Assembly (NCBI RefSeq): GCF_947494015.1
Contig: NZ_CANLTL010000012.1
Span: 83,558-147,557 of the forward strand
From: an uncultured Cellulomonas sp.
Lineage (GTDB): Bacteria > Actinomycetota > Actinomycetes > Actinomycetales > Cellulomonadaceae
Length of the DNA stretch: 64,000 nucleotides
Direction of reading: 5' to 3'
Positions 6,198-64,000 of this stretch are shown piece after piece. Each line of letters starts with the position of its first letter. The first letter of the stretch is position 1. The notes under the pieces are model-generated. The model was not told where the DNA came from. It ran no database searches and saw only the letters and a list, made by a program, of their open reading frames with translations. A program made the translations under genes and the position numbers.

Positions 6198-6526
6198 GAC
6201 CCCATGGTGTCACCCCGACGCACCGGCACGCTGCACGGTGGGGCCGCACGGACGAGGGACGGTCGGCGGGCGCCGCGCAGCCGGTCGCGTCCCGTGCCCT
6301 GCGTGCGGACCTGCGTGCGGACCTGCGTGCGGGCCTGGGTGCGGACCTGCGTGCGGGCCTGGGTGCGGACCTGCGTGCGGGCCTGGGTGCGGAGCGCGTG
6401 GGGGACCTGCGTGTGGGACCGGCGTGGAAGGATGACGGGGCCGGGGGCGGCGACGTGCCCGGCGTCCGTCGTGCCCCACCAGCACCACCACGCGACCCGT
6501 GGCCGCCACCGAGAGGCTCACCGCCC
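6198..6526. promoter_or_regulatory. Divergent control region between mtrA and the plus-strand membrane gene
   Basis: This 329-bp stretch has no convincing gene. It separates mtrA (leftward) from the gene at 6527 (rightward) and must hold both promoters. Its clearest structure is the 12-bp tandem repeat at 6298-6393. I see no strong -35/-10 pair. The plus-strand gene has GAGAGG about 10 nt before its ATG. The short ORFs that cross the region are made by the repeat and have no family resemblance. Confidence 0.6.
6298..6393. repeat. Eight 12-bp tandem units, alternating as 24-mers
   Basis: Eight contiguous units of the form CCTGCGTGCGGA/G and CCTGGGTGCGGA are present. The first two are identical. 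From the third on, GCGT-type and GGGT-type units alternate, so the higher period is 24 bp. A degenerate continuation (CCTGCGTGTGGGA) appears near 6406. The array sits about 100 bp upstream of the mtrA start in the divergent region. Unit length close to one DNA turn would place repeated sites on the same helix face. It is likely length-variable by slippage. Confidence 0.9.
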
Positions 6527-17049: not shown

Positions 17050-18369
17050 TCAGGCGATCGGGTCCTCCTCCTCCACCGGCGGCAGCCCGTCGACGTCGGT
17101 GGAGTTGTCGGAGTTGTCGCTGTTGTCGGAGTTGTCGGAGTTGTCGCTGAGCACGATGTCGTCGTAGCCGTCGTCGTCGGAGTTGTCGGAGTTGTCGCTG
17201 TTGTCCGAGTTGTCGCTGTTGTCGACGACGGAGTTGTCGACCACCGAGTTGTCGGAGTGGTCGGAGTTGTCGACCACCGAGTTGTCGGAGTTGTCGCTGT
17301 TGTCCGAGTTGTCGGAGCTGTCGACGACCGAGTTGTCGACCACCGAGTTGTCGGAGTTGTCGGAGTTGTCGGAGTTGTCCGAGCTGTCGACGACCGAGTT
17401 GTCGACCACCGAGTTGTCGGAGTTGTCGGAGTTGTCGCTGTTGTCCGAGTTGTCGCTGTTGTCGACGACCGAGTTGTCGACCACCGAGTTGTCGCTGTTG
17501 TCCGAGTTGTCGGAGTTGTCGCTGCTGTCGACCACCGAGTTGTCGGAGTTGTCCGAGTTGTCGGAGTTGTCGCTGCTGTCGACGATCGAGTTGTCGACCA
17601 CCGAGTTGTCGCTGTTGTCGGAGTTGTCCGAGCTGTCGACCACCGAGTTGTCGCTGTTGTCGCTGTTGTCCGAGTTGTCGGAGCTGTCGACGACCGAGTT
17701 GTCCGTCACCGAGTTGTCGGAGTTGTCGGAGTTGTCCGAGTTGTCGGAGTGGTCCGAGCTGTCCGAGTTGCCCACGACGTTGCCGTCGCCGAGCACGTTG
17801 CCCGCCCCGACCACGGCCGGCCCGCTGATGTCCTCGCCCGCCGCGACGCCGCCGTTGGCGACCACGGGGTGGATGTCGAACATCTGCTCCACGTCGCCGT
17901 CGGCCCAGATGTTCTGGTTGACCGAGCTGTCCACCACGGTGTCGCGGTCGTCGATGATCGTCGAGTTGTACGTGTAGGTGGCGATGAGGTTCTGCAGCTG
18001 GGGGACGACGTCGTCGCCGCTGCCCGCCGCGCTCCCGGCACCGACGGCGGCCGGGACCGCAGCCGGCGCCGCGGCAGCGGAGGCGGCCGGGACGGCGCTG
18101 ACGGCACCGCCGCCGCCCGAGCTCCCGCCGGAGCCGCTGAGGGTCGCCGGCGCGGAGTTGCCGCCGCCGAAGTCGTAGTCCCGGTCCATGCTGACCGGGG
18201 ACTGGTCGAGCACCACCGGGATGACGTCGTCGAGGTCGGCCGAGGTGATGTCGCCCAGACCCGCGTCCTCGAGGGCGCCCTGCGGGTCCTCGACGAAGGC
18301 CTGCGCGGCCTCGGGGTCACGGAGCAGGTTGAGGATGAAGTCCAGGAGCGTGCTGGCTACGTGCGGCAT
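17050..18369 (-). CDS. IniB-like repeat protein
   Basis: This 439-residue protein has three parts. Residues 1-55 (LLDFILNLLRDPEAAQAFVE, LGDITSADLDDVIPVVLDQ) match the IniB N-terminal domain. Residues 60-200 are a Gly/Ala-rich and then mixed segment containing NQNIWADGDVEQMFD. Residues 201-423 are nearly pure repeats of Ser-Asp-Asn triplets broken by VVDNS/VVDSS blocks. A short acidic tail ends the protein. In mycobacteria IniB is a Gly/Ala-rich repeat protein encoded first in iniBAC; its exact function is unknown. Start is ATG 18369 with AGAGGG about 8 nt upstream. Extreme Asp content and the absence of Cys or aromatics in the repeat suggest an acidic, perhaps ion-binding, extended structure. 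No signal peptide is seen. Confidence 0.88.
   Translation of the reverse strand: MPHVASTLLDFILNLLRDPEAAQAFVEDPQGALEDAGLGDITSADLDDVIPVVLDQSPVSMDRDYDFGGGNSAPATLSGSGGSSGGGGAVSAVPAASAAAAPAAVPAAVGAGSAAGSGDDVVPQLQNLIATYTYNSTIIDDRDTVVDSSVNQNIWADGDVEQMFDIHPVVANGGVAAGEDISGPAVVGAGNVLGDGNVVGNSDSSDHSDNSDNSDNSDNSVTDNSVVDSSDNSDNSDNSDNSVVDSSDNSDNSDNSVVDNSIVDSSDNSDNSDNSDNSVVDSSDNSDNSDNSDNSVVDNSVVDNSDNSDNSDNSDNSDNSVVDNSVVDSSDNSDNSDNSDNSVVDNSVVDSSDNSDNSDNSDNSVVDNSDHSDNSVVDNSVVDNSDNSDNSDNSDNSDDDGYDDIVLSDNSDNSDNSDNSDNSTDVDGLPPVEEEDPIA
17101..17769 (-). repeat. 9-bp-based coding repeat (Ser-Asp-Asn and VVDNS blocks)
   Basis: About 670 bp are built from 9-bp units (plus strand GAGTTGTCG/GAGTTGTCC, encoding Asp-Asn-Ser), interrupted by 15-bp VVD-containing units. 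Several superblocks of roughly 22 codons, NSVVDNSVVDSSDNSDNSDNSD, recur. Synonymous TCG/TCC changes mark unit history. The array is likely to vary in length between strains. Confidence 0.92.
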
Positions 18370-54756: not shown

Positions 54757-54775
54757 TCGGCGGTGCTCATTCGGC
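54748..54775 (-). repeat. 14-bp tandem duplication copying a start codon
   Basis: On the minus strand GCCGAATGAGCACC occurs twice in tandem. The first copy holds the Wzt stop (GAATGA) overlapping an ATG that reads MSTAE then stop. The second ATG at 54756 is the DUF2142 start (MSTAAT). The six-codon mini-ORF ends exactly on the true start (ATGA), so two coupled reinitiations may be needed. Confidence 0.9.
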
Positions 54776-56011
54776 AGTGGCCGTCCGCACGTCCTGCCCG
54801 GCCGGCACCAGCGCGACCGGCGGGCTGAAGTTCTCCCACCTGCTGCCCAGCACGATCGGCCCGCCGGACTCGCGCGGAGCGCCCACCATGACCTCGAACC
54901 GCGCCGCGCGGCGGTGCTGGTCGTAGTCGTGCGTGATCTGCTCGTCGACCACCGACGTGTTCAGCTCGAACACCCCGGGCTGCAGCGGCAGCGCGGGCAC
55001 GACGAGGTCGACCGACCCCGAGCCCTGCAGCCGGGCCGGCACGAAGCCCGCGTCACGGGTGTGGTGCGACCACAGGTGGGTGCCCTCGAGCGTGTGGATC
55101 GAGGCGCCGAAGACCGGCGTGTCCACCCCGCCGGGGGCGACGTAGTGCAGCCGCACCGTCATCGCGTCCCCGGTCCGGAAGGTGCGCTGGTCCTGGCCGT
55201 GGGCGTCGAGGAGCTCGACCCGCTCGACCTGGATCTCCCCCGAGCCCCAGCGCATGCCGCCGTCGGTCACCTCCTGCGCGGCGTGCCCGGTCTCGGTGTA
55301 CTCGTCGACGATGTCGGTCGCCTTGCCGACGTCGACCAGGGTGCCGTGGTCCAGCCACGCCGCCCGGTCGCACAGGCTGCGCATCTCGCCCAGCCCGTGG
55401 CTGACCACGACGACGGTGCGCCCGTCGTTGCGGAACTCGGCGAACTTCTCCCGGCACTTCTCCTGGAACTGCATGTCGCCGACGGCGAGGATCTCGTCCG
55501 CGAGCAGGACGTCCGGCTCGACGTGGATCGCGATGGAGAACCCGAGGCGCACGTACATGCCGGAGGAGTAGTTCTTGACCGGCTGGTCGATGAACGCGCC
55601 GATCCCGGCGAAGTCGACGATCGCCTCGAGCTTGAGGTCGATCTCCCGCTTGCTCATGCCCAGGATCGAGCCGTTGAGGTAGATGTTCTCGCGCCCGGTC
55701 AGCTCGGGGTGGAACCCGGACCCGAGCTCGAGCATCGCCGCGACCCGTCCCCGGGTGGTGATCGTCCCGGTGTTGGGCTGCAGGATGCGGGCGATGCACT
55801 TGAGCATCGTCGACTTGCCCGAGCCGTTGTGGCCGAGCAGCCCGAAGGTGCCGCCCTCGGGGATCTCCAGGGAGACGTCCCGCAGCGCCCAGAAGTCCTC
55901 GTACGTCGCGCGGCCGCGCCGCAGGATCGTCGCCTTGAGCGACTGGTTGCGGTCCCGGTACACCCGGAAGGACTTGGAGACGTCGTCGACGACGACGGCC
56001 GGTGTGCTCAC
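54767..56011 (-). CDS. Polysaccharide ABC exporter ATPase, Wzt-like
   Basis: This 414-residue protein starts at GTG 56011 (VSTPAVVVDDVSKSFRVYRD), overlapping the permease stop. The NBD is residues 1-245: Walker A LLGHNGSGKST, Q-loop region, signature NYSSGMYVRLGF, Walker B DVLLADEILAVGD and VVVVSHGLGEM. Residues about 250-414 form an extra beta-sandwich-like domain (RWGSGEIQVERVELLDAHGQ, VFGASIHTLEGTHLW, PLQPGVFELNTSVVDE) typical of Wzt proteins that recognise the terminal modification of the exported glycan. It pairs with the permease at 56008. This domain supports a terminator enzyme such as the protein at 43427. Confidence 0.93.
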   Translation of the reverse strand: MSTPAVVVDDVSKSFRVYRDRNQSLKATILRRGRATYEDFWALRDVSLEIPEGGTFGLLGHNGSGKSTMLKCIARILQPNTGTITTRGRVAAMLELGSGFHPELTGRENIYLNGSILGMSKREIDLKLEAIVDFAGIGAFIDQPVKNYSSGMYVRLGFSIAIHVEPDVLLADEILAVGDMQFQEKCREKFAEFRNDGRTVVVVSHGLGEMRSLCDRAAWLDHGTLVDVGKATDIVDEYTETGHAAQEVTDGGMRWGSGEIQVERVELLDAHGQDQRTFRTGDAMTVRLHYVAPGGVDTPVFGASIHTLEGTHLWSHHTRDAGFVPARLQGSGSVDLVVPALPLQPGVFELNTSVVDEQITHDYDQHRRAARFEVMVGAPRESGGPIVLGSRWENFSPPVALVPAGQDVRTATAE

Positions 56012-59135: not shown

Positions 59136-60527
59136 ATGGCCCAGCACGCGCCGAGCACCACCCCGCGCCGTTCGGTCCTCGTCCTGACGGACGACGTCCT
59201 GTCCTCCTCGATGGCCGGTCCGGCGATCCGGGCGTGGAACATCGCCGAGGTGCTCGCCGACCACCACGACGTGCGGCTGGCCTCGACGGTGCGGTCGGAG
59301 GCGAGCTCGCCGCGGTTCGCCGTCTGCGACGGGACGCCCGAGCGTCTGCGCGGCATCGCCGAAGGGCAGGACGTCGTCGTCGTGCAGGGCTTCACCCTGG
59401 CCAAGAACCCGTGGCTGGCCGACCTCGGTGCGCGGGTCGTGGTCGACCTGTACGACCCCATCCACCTGGAGATCCTCGAGATGGCCCGGCAGGAGACCGC
59501 GCGCCGCCGCACCGAGATGCTGCAGGCCTCGGTCCGCGCGCTGCAGGTCCAGGCCCGGGCCGGCGACTTCTTCCTGGCCGCCTCCGAGCGGCAGCGTGAC
59601 TTCTGGCTGGGGCACCTCGCCGCCTGGGGGCGGGTCAACGACGCGACGTACCGCCAGGACCCGACGCTGCGCGCGCTGATCGACGTCGCGCCGTTCGGGA
59701 TCCCCCGCGAGCCCGCCACGACGGCCTCGCCGGCGATCAAGGGCCGGATCGACGGGATCGGCCCCGACGACGTCGTGCTGCTGTGGGGCGGCGGCGTCTA
59801 CAACTGGTTCGACCCGGTGACCCTGGTGCGTGCGCTCGGCGAGCTGCGCGACTCGGCGCCGGCCGTGCGGCTGGTGTTCATGGGCACCACCCACCCGTCC
59901 ATGGCCGACCCCGAGACGGCCGCCCTGCGCGAGGCGGTGCGCGCGGCCACCGACCTCGGGCTGGTGGGCACGCACGTGTTCTTCACCGAGGGCTGGGTCC
60001 CGTACGCGCAGCGGGCAGGCTTCCTGACCGACGCCGACCTGGGCGTCTCGACCCACTTCGACCACGTCGAGACGTCGTTCTCCTTCCGCACCCGCATGCT
60101 CGACTACCTGTGGGCCGGCCTGCCGATCGTGTGCACGTCCGGGGACACGTTCGCCGACCTGGTCGCCGAGCACGACCTCGGCCGCGTGGTGCCGCCGCGC
60201 GACCCGGCGGCCCTCGCCCGGGCGATCACCGAGCTGCTGGACCCCGACGTCCGGGCGGGCTGCACCGACCGCATCGCCGCAGTGCGTGAGCGCTTCCGGT
60301 GGGACGTCGCGCTGCGCCCGCTGGTGGACTACGTCGCCGAGGCACCCCGGGCCGCCGACCTGGCGGTGCGCACCAGTGCCGTCGGACGGGCCGCCGCACT
60401 GGGCGCCCGGGTGGACGACCTGGCCGGCGAGGTCCGGCGGTACGTCGAGGCCAACGGCTGGCAGCGCCTGGCGCGCCGAGCCGGGCAGCTGGTCTGGCAG
60501 CGAACCCGTTCCCTCACGCACCTCTAG
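59136..60527 (+). CDS. Glycosyltransferase family 4 protein
   Basis: This 463-residue protein starts at ATG 59136 (MAQHAPSTTPRRSVLVLTDD). Features are LTDDVLSSSMAGPAIRAWNI, LGARVVVDLYDPIHLEIL, FLAASERQRDFWLGHLAAWG, LLWGGGVYNWFDPVTLVRAL, HVFFTEGWVPYAQRAGFLTD and FRTRMLDYLWAGLPIVCTSG. They show a GT-B enzyme with a degenerate C-terminal acidic motif, typical of GT4 members in cell-wall loci. A basic, helical C-terminal tail is present. It is 7 bp before the next glycosyltransferase gene, so an operon is likely. Confidence 0.9.
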   Translation: MAQHAPSTTPRRSVLVLTDDVLSSSMAGPAIRAWNIAEVLADHHDVRLASTVRSEASSPRFAVCDGTPERLRGIAEGQDVVVVQGFTLAKNPWLADLGARVVVDLYDPIHLEILEMARQETARRRTEMLQASVRALQVQARAGDFFLAASERQRDFWLGHLAAWGRVNDATYRQDPTLRALIDVAPFGIPREPATTASPAIKGRIDGIGPDDVVLLWGGGVYNWFDPVTLVRALGELRDSAPAVRLVFMGTTHPSMADPETAALREAVRAATDLGLVGTHVFFTEGWVPYAQRAGFLTDADLGVSTHFDHVETSFSFRTRMLDYLWAGLPIVCTSGDTFADLVAEHDLGRVVPPRDPAALARAITELLDPDVRAGCTDRIAAVRERFRWDVALRPLVDYVAEAPRAADLAVRTSAVGRAAALGARVDDLAGEVRRYVEANGWQRLARRAGQLVWQRTRSLTHL

Positions 60528-60534
60528 GACCCGC

Positions 60535-63177
60535 ATGCGCATCGTCGTCGTCTCCTCGCACTTCCCGCCCAACTTCGTCTCGGGCGGGACGCTCGTGCCG
60601 TACCGCGCCGCCCTGGGGCTGGCGCAGCGGGGCCACGAGGTGTTCGTGTACGCGGGCCGGATCGACCCGTCCAGCCCCGACGGGGAGGTCACCGAGGAGC
60701 GCACCGCCGACGGTCTGACGATCCGGTGGGTCACGTGCACGTCGGCGACGGAGTGGGCCTCGGACACCAACTTCTCCAACGGCGAGGTGGAGGCGGACTT
60801 CGCCGCCTACCTGCAGGCCGTCCGGCCCGACGTCGTGCACGTGCACGCCATCCAGGGCTTCGGCGGCGGGCTGGTCCCGCTCGCGCGCGCGGCGGGAGCC
60901 GCGGTGGTGATCACCATGCACGACCTGTGGTGGTGGTGCGCCCGCCAGTTCATGGTGGAGCCGTCGATGCACGCGTGCCCGGTGGTCCCGGCCGCCGGCG
61001 TGTGCCCGTGCGCGCGGGACAACGCGTGGCTGCAGGCGCGCAACCACCGGCTCGCCGCGCAGGGCCGCACGGCCGACCTGGTGCTCACCCCGTCGGCGAG
61101 CATGCGCCGCATCCTGGTCGCCAACGGCGTCGACCCGGCGCGGGTCCAGGTCGACGAGAACGGCGTCCCGGACGACGTCGTCCGCGTCGACCCGGTGGCG
61201 CCCGGCAGCGTGCAGCAGGAGCAGGAGCAGGCGCCCCGCACCGGTCCGCTGCGGCTGATGTTCGCCGGCGGCACCCACGCGCTCAAGGGCGGCCCGCTGC
61301 TGCTGGAGGCCGCCGCCCGCCTGGTGGACCGGCCCGGCTGGGAGCTGGAGATGTACGGGTGGGAGGGCCGCACGGTCCCGGCGCACCTCGAGGGCCACGT
61401 GCGGTTCCGGGCGCCGTACGCACCGCACGAGGCCGCCGAGGTGCTGGCGGCCCACGACGCGCTCGTCCTGCCGAGCCTGGCCCGCGAGTCGTACTCGCTG
61501 CTCACCCGGGAGGCGCTGCGGGCCGGGCTGCCGGTCCTGACCTCCGACACCCCCGGGCCCACCGAGGCGGTCCGGGACGGGGTCAACGGGCTCATCGTGC
61601 CGATCGGCGACGTCACCGCGCTCGCCGCGGCGATGGAGCGGCTGATCAGCGAGCCGACCCTGCTCGCCGACCTGGCGCCCGACCGCAGCGCGGTGCGGCT
61701 GCGCACCGTGGACGAGCAGGTCGACGCGAACGTGGCCCAGTACGAGCGGCTGCTCGCCGAGCGCTCCGCGGCCGAGGCCGCCGAGGCGGCGGCGGCGACC
61801 CTCGAGGTGACCGACCGGCCGCTGCCGCCCATCCGGCAGGTGCTGCTCGCCAGCGGCATCGGCAGCGCGCCGCTGCGCTACCGCGGCCGGCTGCCGCAGG
61901 AGGGACTGGCGCTGCACGGCGTGCGGATGGACGTGCGGATGTACCGCGACGTCGACGTCGCCCGGCTCGCCCGGTCGACCGACGCGCTCGTGCTCTACCG
62001 CACCCCGGCGACCGAGCAGGTGCTCGACCTCGTCGCGATGGTCCGGGCCCGCCCCGGTCCGGTGCCGGTGCTCTTCGACATCGACGACCTCGTCGTCGAC
62101 CCCGACCTGCACGCCGAGATCGACCCGCTGCTCGAGGTCCTCGACCCCGAGGACCGCCGCCGCTACTGGCAGGGGGTGCGCCGCTACCGCACCACGCTGG
62201 AGTCGGCCGACGCCTTCATCGGGTCCACCGACCCGCTGTGCGCGGCGATCCACCGGCTGACCGGCATGCCGGTCCACCGCTTCGCCAACGGCGTGGGCAG
62301 GCACCTGGCCCAGGCGAGCGACCACGCGCTGCGCCAGCCGCGCCGGCCGGGTCCGCTGCGCATCGGCTACCTGTCCGGGACCAACACCCACAACGCCGAC
62401 TGGGCCTTCATCGAGGGGGCCGTGATCGACGCGATGCAGGCGCGACCGGACCTGGAGCTGTGGCTGGGTGGCCTGCTGGACGTCTCGCCGCGGATGGACC
62501 CGTACACCGCGCGCGTGCGGCGCCTGCCGCTGATGTCCTGGCTGGAGCTGCCCACCGTGCTGCGCGACCTGGACGTCAACCTGGCGCCGCTGAACGTCGG
62601 CACCCAGTTCAACGAGGCCAAGAGCGCGATCAAGCACCTCGAGGCGGCGCTCGTCGAGACGCCGACGATCGCCTCACCCACCCAGCCGTTCCGGGAGGCG
62701 ATCCGGCACGGGGCCACCGGCTACCTCGCGCACTCCGCCGCGGAGTGGACCGAGCTGCTGCTGCGCCTGGTCGACGACGCCGCGCTGCGGTCCTCGATGG
62801 GGCAGCGCGCCCGCACCGAGGTGCTGCTGGACCTGTCCCCCGCCCTGCAGGGGCGCCGCTACCTCCAGATCCTGCAGTCGGCCCAGGCGGACGTGGCCGA
62901 GCACGGGCACCGGCCGATGCTGGCGGGCTTCACCCCGGAGACCGAGAACGAGCCGTTCTTCCGGTGGGACGCCGAGCCGTACGAGGGCGCCCCGTGGCTC
63001 CAGGCGCCCGGTCGCCCGGGCGAGCCGGCAGCCCGCGACCTGCGCCGCATCGTCTCGGACTACCGGGTCAGCGCGTTCGGGTACCTCGCCGACCAGGGCG
63101 TCGCCGCCACGACCGTCAAGGTCGCGACGGTCGCCGGGCGACTGCCCGCACGCGCCCTGCGCCGGCTGGCCCGCTAG
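60535..63177 (+). CDS. Tandem two-domain glycosyltransferase (GT4-GT4)
   Basis: This 880-residue protein starts at ATG 60535 (MRIVVVSSHFPPNFVSGGTL), with AGGA 7 nt upstream. The N-terminal GT-B (about 1-400) has MHDLWWWCARQFMVEP, LMFAGGTHALKGGPLLLEAA and LPSLARESYSLLTREALRAG. A linker follows. The C-terminal GT-B (about 440-790) has SGIGSAPLRYRGRLPQEGL, VPVLFDIDDLVVDPDLHAEI, RIGYLSGTNTHNADWAFIEG and LNVGTQFNEAKSAIKHLEAAL. Two active sites could add two sugars successively. A helical C-terminal tail ends in basic residues. Donors are unknown. Confidence 0.9.
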   Translation: MRIVVVSSHFPPNFVSGGTLVPYRAALGLAQRGHEVFVYAGRIDPSSPDGEVTEERTADGLTIRWVTCTSATEWASDTNFSNGEVEADFAAYLQAVRPDVVHVHAIQGFGGGLVPLARAAGAAVVITMHDLWWWCARQFMVEPSMHACPVVPAAGVCPCARDNAWLQARNHRLAAQGRTADLVLTPSASMRRILVANGVDPARVQVDENGVPDDVVRVDPVAPGSVQQEQEQAPRTGPLRLMFAGGTHALKGGPLLLEAAARLVDRPGWELEMYGWEGRTVPAHLEGHVRFRAPYAPHEAAEVLAAHDALVLPSLARESYSLLTREALRAGLPVLTSDTPGPTEAVRDGVNGLIVPIGDVTALAAAMERLISEPTLLADLAPDRSAVRLRTVDEQVDANVAQYERLLAERSAAEAAEAAAATLEVTDRPLPPIRQVLLASGIGSAPLRYRGRLPQEGLALHGVRMDVRMYRDVDVARLARSTDALVLYRTPATEQVLDLVAMVRARPGPVPVLFDIDDLVVDPDLHAEIDPLLEVLDPEDRRRYWQGVRRYRTTLESADAFIGSTDPLCAAIHRLTGMPVHRFANGVGRHLAQASDHALRQPRRPGPLRIGYLSGTNTHNADWAFIEGAVIDAMQARPDLELWLGGLLDVSPRMDPYTARVRRLPLMSWLELPTVLRDLDVNLAPLNVGTQFNEAKSAIKHLEAALVETPTIASPTQPFREAIRHGATGYLAHSAAEWTELLLRLVDDAALRSSMGQRARTEVLLDLSPALQGRRYLQILQSAQADVAEHGHRPMLAGFTPETENEPFFRWDAEPYEGAPWLQAPGRPGEPAARDLRRIVSDYRVSAFGYLADQGVAATTVKVATVAGRLPARALRRLAR

Positions 63178-63256: not shown

Positions 63257-64000
63257 TCAGCGCGGGACCTCCACGCCCACGGTGAACGACGCCCCGGGCG
63301 CGACCGTGAACGTCTGCGGCCCGGGCAGGGTGAACCCGGCCGGCACCGCCACCGCCACCGCGCAGTACGTCCCGGGGAACGCCGAGATCGGGAACGACCC
63401 GTCCGCCGCCGTGCGCATCCGGGAGAACACCGTCGAGCACGTCGCGTTGCGGATCTCGAACACCGCACCGACCACCGGCGCGCCCCCGGACGTGGCCACC
63501 AGCCGGCCCGACGACGCCGCCGCCGGCACCTCGACCCGGGCCGTGAACCCGCCGGCCCCGACCGCGAACGTCAGCGGCCCCGGCAGGGTGAAGCCGGCCG
63601 GGACCGACACCGCCACCGCGCAGTAGGTGCCCGGGAACGCCGTCACCGGGAAGGAGCCGTCCGCGCCCGTGCGCATCCGGGAGAACACCGTCGAGCACGT
63701 CGCGTTGCGGACCTCGAACACCGCACCGGCCACCGGCACGCCCCCCGAGGAGGCCACCACCCGGCCCGACGACGCCGCCGCCGGCACCTCGACCCGGGCC
63801 GTGAAGGCGCCCGCCCCGACCGCGAACGTCTGCGTCGCCGGCAGCGCGTACCCCGACGGCACCGACACCGCGACCAGGCAGTACGTCCCGGGGAACGCCG
63901 TCACCGGGAACGCCCCGTCCGCGCCCGTGCGCATCCGGGAGAACACCGTCGAGCACGTCGCGTTGCGGACCTCGAACACCGCACCGGCCACCGGCACGCC
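63257..64000 (-). CDS. C-terminal part of a repeat protein with 86-residue Cys-paired modules
   Basis: The frame stays open to the right edge, so the N-terminus is missing. The visible about 247 residues hold three modules of 86 residues: GAVFEVRNATCSTVFSRMRT, then GxFPVTAFPGTYCAVAVSVP and a tail with FTARVEVPAAASSGR. The module resembles prealbumin-like or SpaA-type repeats (GAVFEV ... PGTY), but each has two Cys and no Lys in the first strand, so a disulfide rather than an isopeptide bond is likely. The last module ends in VEVPR and a stop, with no LPxTG or TM. It is probably secreted; its anchoring is unknown. Confidence 0.8.
   Translation of the reverse strand, partial: GVPVAGAVFEVRNATCSTVFSRMRTGADGAFPVTAFPGTYCLVAVSVPSGYALPATQTFAVGAGAFTARVEVPAAASSGRVVASSGGVPVAGAVFEVRNATCSTVFSRMRTGADGSFPVTAFPGTYCAVAVSVPAGFTLPGPLTFAVGAGGFTARVEVPAAASSGRLVATSGGAPVVGAVFEIRNATCSTVFSRMRTAADGSFPISAFPGTYCAVAVAVPAGFTLPGPQTFTVAPGASFTVGVEVPR
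63257..64000 (-). repeat. 258-bp tandem coding repeat, three visible copies
   Basis: The same stretch (for example CGCATCCGGGAGAACACC) recurs near 63414, 63672 and 63930, a period of 258 bp. Copies one and two (edge side) are more alike than the terminal one. The array continues beyond the window. Confidence 0.9.

Follow-up and report, generated by a model that had tools for sequence, protein, structure and literature searches.

The tandem modules encoded at the end of the window (the whole stretch of 64,000 nucleotides analysed here) are predicted to be the C-terminal tail of a secreted PGRP/Amidase_2-type N-acetylmuramoyl-L-alanine amidase. The modules have, with confidence from structure models, the CnaB/SpaA fold, but the Lys / E-box Glu / Asn-Asp isopeptide triad is wholly gone from them, and one disulfide within each module is likely. 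The parts are all of known kinds; what is new is their combination and the complete triad loss in a tandem Cys-paired array.

The module array and its fold

Tandem Repeats Finder scored a repeat of period 258 bp at 63294-64000 at 1141, far above chance, with 89% matches over 2.7 copies and no indels. The minus-strand frame over this repeat encodes modules of about 86 residues, in agreement with the sequence-only reading, with slight length variation (module 1 has 87 aa and the last module carries a one-residue insertion). The window runs from base 83558 to base 147557 of contig C12, and as C12 has a length of 147557 bases, the window end is the contig end; the module frame is open there and has no start on the C12 side.

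63257..64000, minus strand: 3' part of the module gene, tandem SpaA-like, Cys-paired modules (ORF of 247 aa plus stop, Tandem Repeats Finder, Pfam SpaA)
63764..64000, minus strand: module cut at its 5' side by the contig end, 79 aa; Cys codons 63953-63955 and 63878-63880
63506..63763, minus strand: complete 86-aa module, folded by AlphaFold with its flanks (63500-63772); Cys codons 63695-63697 and 63620-63622
63257..63505, minus strand: last module, 82 aa plus stop, ending in GVEVPR; Cys codons 63437-63439 and 63362-63364

Five modules were detected in the genome, three in the window and two in contig C29, and five is a minimum count, as the assembly breaks inside the array and leaves a gap between C12 and C29. 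The two Cys in fixed positions noticed earlier are found at module positions 23 and 48 in all five modules, so the array is not limited to one further copy and the Cys positions are conserved. The GAVFEV and PGTYC signatures also held: each copy in the window has GAVFEV/I and PGTYC together with both Cys, and 27 columns are invariant across the five modules.

The earlier description of the DNA copies as nearly identical was overstated. The three window copies share 83-91% DNA identity (dS 0.20-0.32), and the first module shares only 68-72% with the other modules (dS 0.40-0.66). Over all copies the identity is 68-91%, dS 0.20-0.66 and dN 0.06-0.33, with dN below dS in nearly all pairs. The copies are thus not recent identical duplicates, and they have diverged with the Cys retained. 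Such divergence bears on the reading of the array as an ordinary degenerate SpaA/CarboxypepD_reg repeat tail of no special role, the Cys being a neutral lineage peculiarity. The C29 modules do also score as CarboxypepD_reg, and tails made of such clan repeats are frequent in the family; we nevertheless consider this reading unlikely, because none of the five modules has lost either Cys, not even the one about 40% different in amino acids with dS up to 0.66, and dN falls below dS in almost every pair.

The Pfam SpaA profile PF17802 matched the three-module window protein with 63.6 bits (E 1.9e-17, cut-off 23.1). The genome-wide PF17802 search listed no single module, and the match of the C29 part is to CarboxypepD_reg, a related family of the same clan. 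AlphaFold modelled one module with its flanks as a seven-stranded CnaB fold (pLDDT 93.4). The best Foldseek match in the PDB was CnaB2 of L. plantarum (8bdw, E 2.9e-6, TM 0.80), followed by pilins, FbaB and, lower down, SpaD of C. diphtheriae (4hss); 2x5p and 3kpt were matched as well. The earlier assignment to SpaA-like modules is thus supported by profile and predicted fold alike. In the three-module model (pLDDT 83.6, pTM 0.56) the modules are predicted to form separate beads, their relative orientation being uncertain.

Isopeptide residues and the cysteine pair

The modules resemble the SpaA prealbumin-like and CnaB domains (PF17802; CnaB2 of 8bdw, FbaB CnaB2/SpyCatcher 4mls) in their seven-stranded fold, in the GA-F-E-V start and in the E-box strand pattern ending in P-x-G-Y/F. 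Unlike the isopeptide domains of this group they have no Lys, E-box Glu or final Asn/Asp, and are unable to form the isopeptide bond; a Cys pair is present instead. The missing Lys, pointed out by the sequence-only reading, was borne out over the 392 module residues, which contain none, and the other two residues of the triad are missing too. In the E-box strand, YTFVETAAPDGY of the module aligns to YCAVAVSVPAGF of CnaB2/SpyCatcher, and the position of the catalytic Glu is occupied by Ala in the modules and by Pro in one of them; the last strand of the modules contains neither Asn nor Asp. According to a 2025 survey, 41% of such domains in Actinomycetota have a disulfide alongside the isopeptide bond (PMC12617251), whereas the modules described here have the Cys pair without the isopeptide residues.

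In the AlphaFold model, Cys 26 directly follows strand 2 and Cys 51 is part of strand 5. In SpaD, the D3 domain has two of its strands tied by Cys352-Cys402, and SpaA has a comparable bond (PMC4014117); Cys385-Cys449 of FimP is at a similar place (PMC3485203). The second Cys of the module aligns exactly with a disulfide Cys in both FimP and SpaD, and the first, strand-B Cys is two residues later than the pilin Cys. A disulfide within each module is likely because the Cys positions match those of the pilin disulfides exactly or within two residues.

The C-terminal CnaB domains of actinobacterial pilins (C. diphtheriae SpaA/SpaD, Actinomyces oris FimP) share with the modules a Cys at the same place in the E-box strand (YC/FC), a Cys at the end of strand B, in the modules a probable partner, and probable oxidation by a DsbA-like/VKOR pathway. 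The pilins differ in having an isopeptide bond together with the disulfide, a large loop insertion, a pilin motif and LPXTG, whereas the modules are compact and tandem and have neither isopeptide residues nor a sortase signal. In Actinomyces, exported pilins are oxidised by the MdbA/VKOR pair (PMC9974433). Two genes lying within about 3 kb in the genome studied here may, by analogy, form the corresponding oxidation pathway.

C4:5123-5509: VKOR gene
C4:7996-8469: Thioredoxin_4 (DsbA-like) gene

Metal binding by the Cys, or disulfides between different tails that would produce a covalent surface mesh, could be considered given that the Cys are invariant and number ten or more per chain. Both appear very improbable: the positions match the intra-domain disulfide of the pilin C-domains, and a module with just its two Cys, and neither a His nor a further Cys, is an unlikely metal site. 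As a natural case of a tandem CnaB-type array that has lost the isopeptide machinery and probably retains a disulfide only, the array would allow two covalent ways of stiffening to be compared in the same fold.

The amidase and its wall-polysaccharide locus

The earlier reading proposed an extension past the window in search of a signal peptide, an anchor and the copy number. The 5' part of the gene was found at the start of contig C29 (L004:3-1712, minus strand), encoding a signal peptide, Amidase_2 and two modules: C29 begins inside a module and reads back, without a stop, through two modules into the amidase and, ahead of it, the signal peptide. The C12 and C29 ends very likely belong to one gene, the join spanning an unsequenced gap, because the genome has no module matches beyond these five, which sit where the two contigs face each other, because the start is missing on one side and the stop on the other, and because the synteny agrees. 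In the one-contig genome G011 of a related genus, homologues of the C12 genes (the window glycosyltransferases and ABC transporter) and of the C29 genes (methyltransferase, amidase, rmlB and LCP) are together within 20 kb. The copy number is thus at least five modules.

The C29 protein starts with a hydrophobic signal, followed by a region conserved in orthologs and by Amidase_2 (PF01510, 65 bits against a cut-off of 26). The zinc-ligand motifs VVHHTAS and HRDVGFTACPG (His, His, Cys) and the YNFLV stretch align with solved PGRPs, and the first module begins at residue 426, shortly after the amidase. We found no paper in the literature combining a SpaA-like domain with an amidase.

The protein ends in ASFTVGVEVPR with no sortase motif or transmembrane segment, and the best 19-residue hydropathy of the window part is only 1.45, inside the modules. 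An LPXTG surface protein was rejected, as no sorting signal or transmembrane segment follows the last module. Sortase-anchored pilins and fibrillar adhesins do not match either, the N-terminal domain being an amidase and an LPXTG-type signal being absent. Four sortase genes are present in the genome. The earlier idea of disulfide-stabilised surface modules stands in part: disulfide stabilisation and export are both probable, but the modules are the tail of an amidase rather than a free-standing surface or adhesin protein.

The locus contains rmlB, LCP (LytR-CpsA-Psr), a Wzt-type ABC transporter and many glycosyltransferases, a gene set as expected for a rhamnose/wall-polysaccharide locus. The G+C content near the module gene is 70-78%, and relatives and pilin-like matches place the bacterium among the actinobacteria, in a family of at least 25 genera.

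60286..63177, plus strand: two-part glycosyltransferase (GT4 type), convergent with the module gene (Pfam, ORF)
54767..55933, minus strand: Wzt-type ABC transporter ATPase (ABC_tran and Wzt_C) of the same wall-polysaccharide locus (Pfam, G011 synteny)

The first of these is a single frame joining two glycosyltransferase halves, that is, two GT4-type stretches.

Exchange of amidase tails and the proposed role

The amidase has a match in 129 of 150 family genomes. The secreted PGRP/Amidase_2 amidases of the family (L006, L007, L048-L076) are alike in the N-terminal region and the amidase domain (at most 66% identity) and, in the species checked, in a locus adjoining rmlB and LCP. They differ in their tails, which are of DUF4214, CWB2, RVLDTR or other type, SpaA modules being found only here. 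Among the best 30 amidase loci the tails are DUF4214 repeats, CWB2 repeats, a tail of about 475 aa with RVLDTR motifs, and further types; within the genus itself, DUF4214 tails occur in two species, and another species has a tail that resembles FG-GAP on inspection and lacks a clear match in Pfam. A SpaA tail on the amidase was seen in 1 of the 150 family genomes among the matches listed, and the SpaA-profile search of these genomes gave no match beside an amidase among those listed, compared by eye. The C-terminal position of the orthologous wall amidases thus appears, from sequence comparison, to be a domain-exchange slot.

Some further observations concern these loci. In L048-L076, one conserved wall amidase carries unrelated C-terminal tails in a largely syntenic locus of related species. 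G001, of the same genus and rated 100% complete, has no match to the amidase. L004:6295-8838 (plus strand) encodes a probable secreted zinc metalloprotease (HEIGHNLGLGH) with no Pfam match (E 1e-5) and a C-terminal RVLDTR-type tail, of the same kind as the amidase tail in G011 and other genera.

We consider it fairly probable that the array is a swapped-in, disulfide-locked tail for wall retention or spacing of the secreted amidase, the disulfide and the wall role both being inferred. A retention or spacer role is suggested because CWB2, which occupies the same position in relatives, is an anchor to a wall polymer (PMC8056022). The module Cys, at the site of the pilin disulfide between the E-box strand and the end of strand B, would be oxidised outside the cell by the DsbA-like/VKOR system, and the disulfide would lock each bead. 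The tail would then retain the amidase within the wall and fix its distance, like the other tails in this position, through repeated weak contacts and spacing and not through sortase. The clostridial Cwp proteins, in which an enzyme is combined with a CWB2 wall anchor, may work alike, as wall enzymes held on repeated non-covalent modules; the CWB2 fold is unrelated to that of the SpaA modules, for which wall binding is putative.

A ligand-binding tail in place of a spacer, adhesin-like or a lectin for wall polysaccharide, with a CnaB binding face and avidity by repetition, is a serious though somewhat less than even prospect. It would agree with the known polymer-binding module CWB2 filling the same position in orthologs, with the amidase lying within a polysaccharide locus and with the invariance of VFSRMRT and most of AFPGTYC in all modules; however, CnaB/SpaA domains are mostly stalk domains (PMC8286594), and no known ligand-binding SpaA module of such type was found by sequence or fold. 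More tentatively, the tail position may be an exchangeable wall-attachment slot in which every lineage places a module that fits its particular wall polysaccharide; the Cys-paired SpaA modules would then be a new disulfide-dependent wall-binding repeat that took the place of DUF4214/CWB2-type anchors in this species. With unrelated tails on orthologous wall amidases in one conserved locus of related species, the way in which such enzymes are retained in the actinobacterial wall can be put to a direct test.

No Cys-paired module was found elsewhere in 150 family, 297 order and 397 phylum genomes, samples that overlap in part. None was detected by an exact-pattern scan of 84,980 species, which reaches close relatives only, and the viral scan gave no relative. 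Several matches were rejected. The Chiayiivirga match of the scan of about 85,000 species (L046) is due to chance, being a frame without domain context and with a stop nearby. The family matches L011-L018 are ordinary CarboxypepD_reg/SdrD_B/SpaA-like repeats, mostly with LPXTG-like ends and none with the Cys pair, and the order and phylum matches, at E 1e-3 to 1e-6, likewise lack the pair and belong to ordinary CnaB/CarboxypepD domains. L036 has Cys near both positions, but it is a partial match in a subtilase-type protein. The plasmid tblastn matches are ordinary Firmicute SpaA proteins of about 28% identity.

Two other repeats were observed in the window: a 24-bp tandem repeat at 6298-6426 (5.3 copies, 89% matches), and a long degenerate tandem array of 9/15/51-bp units at 17101-17770, the minus strand of which would read as Asp-Asn-Ser-rich repeats.
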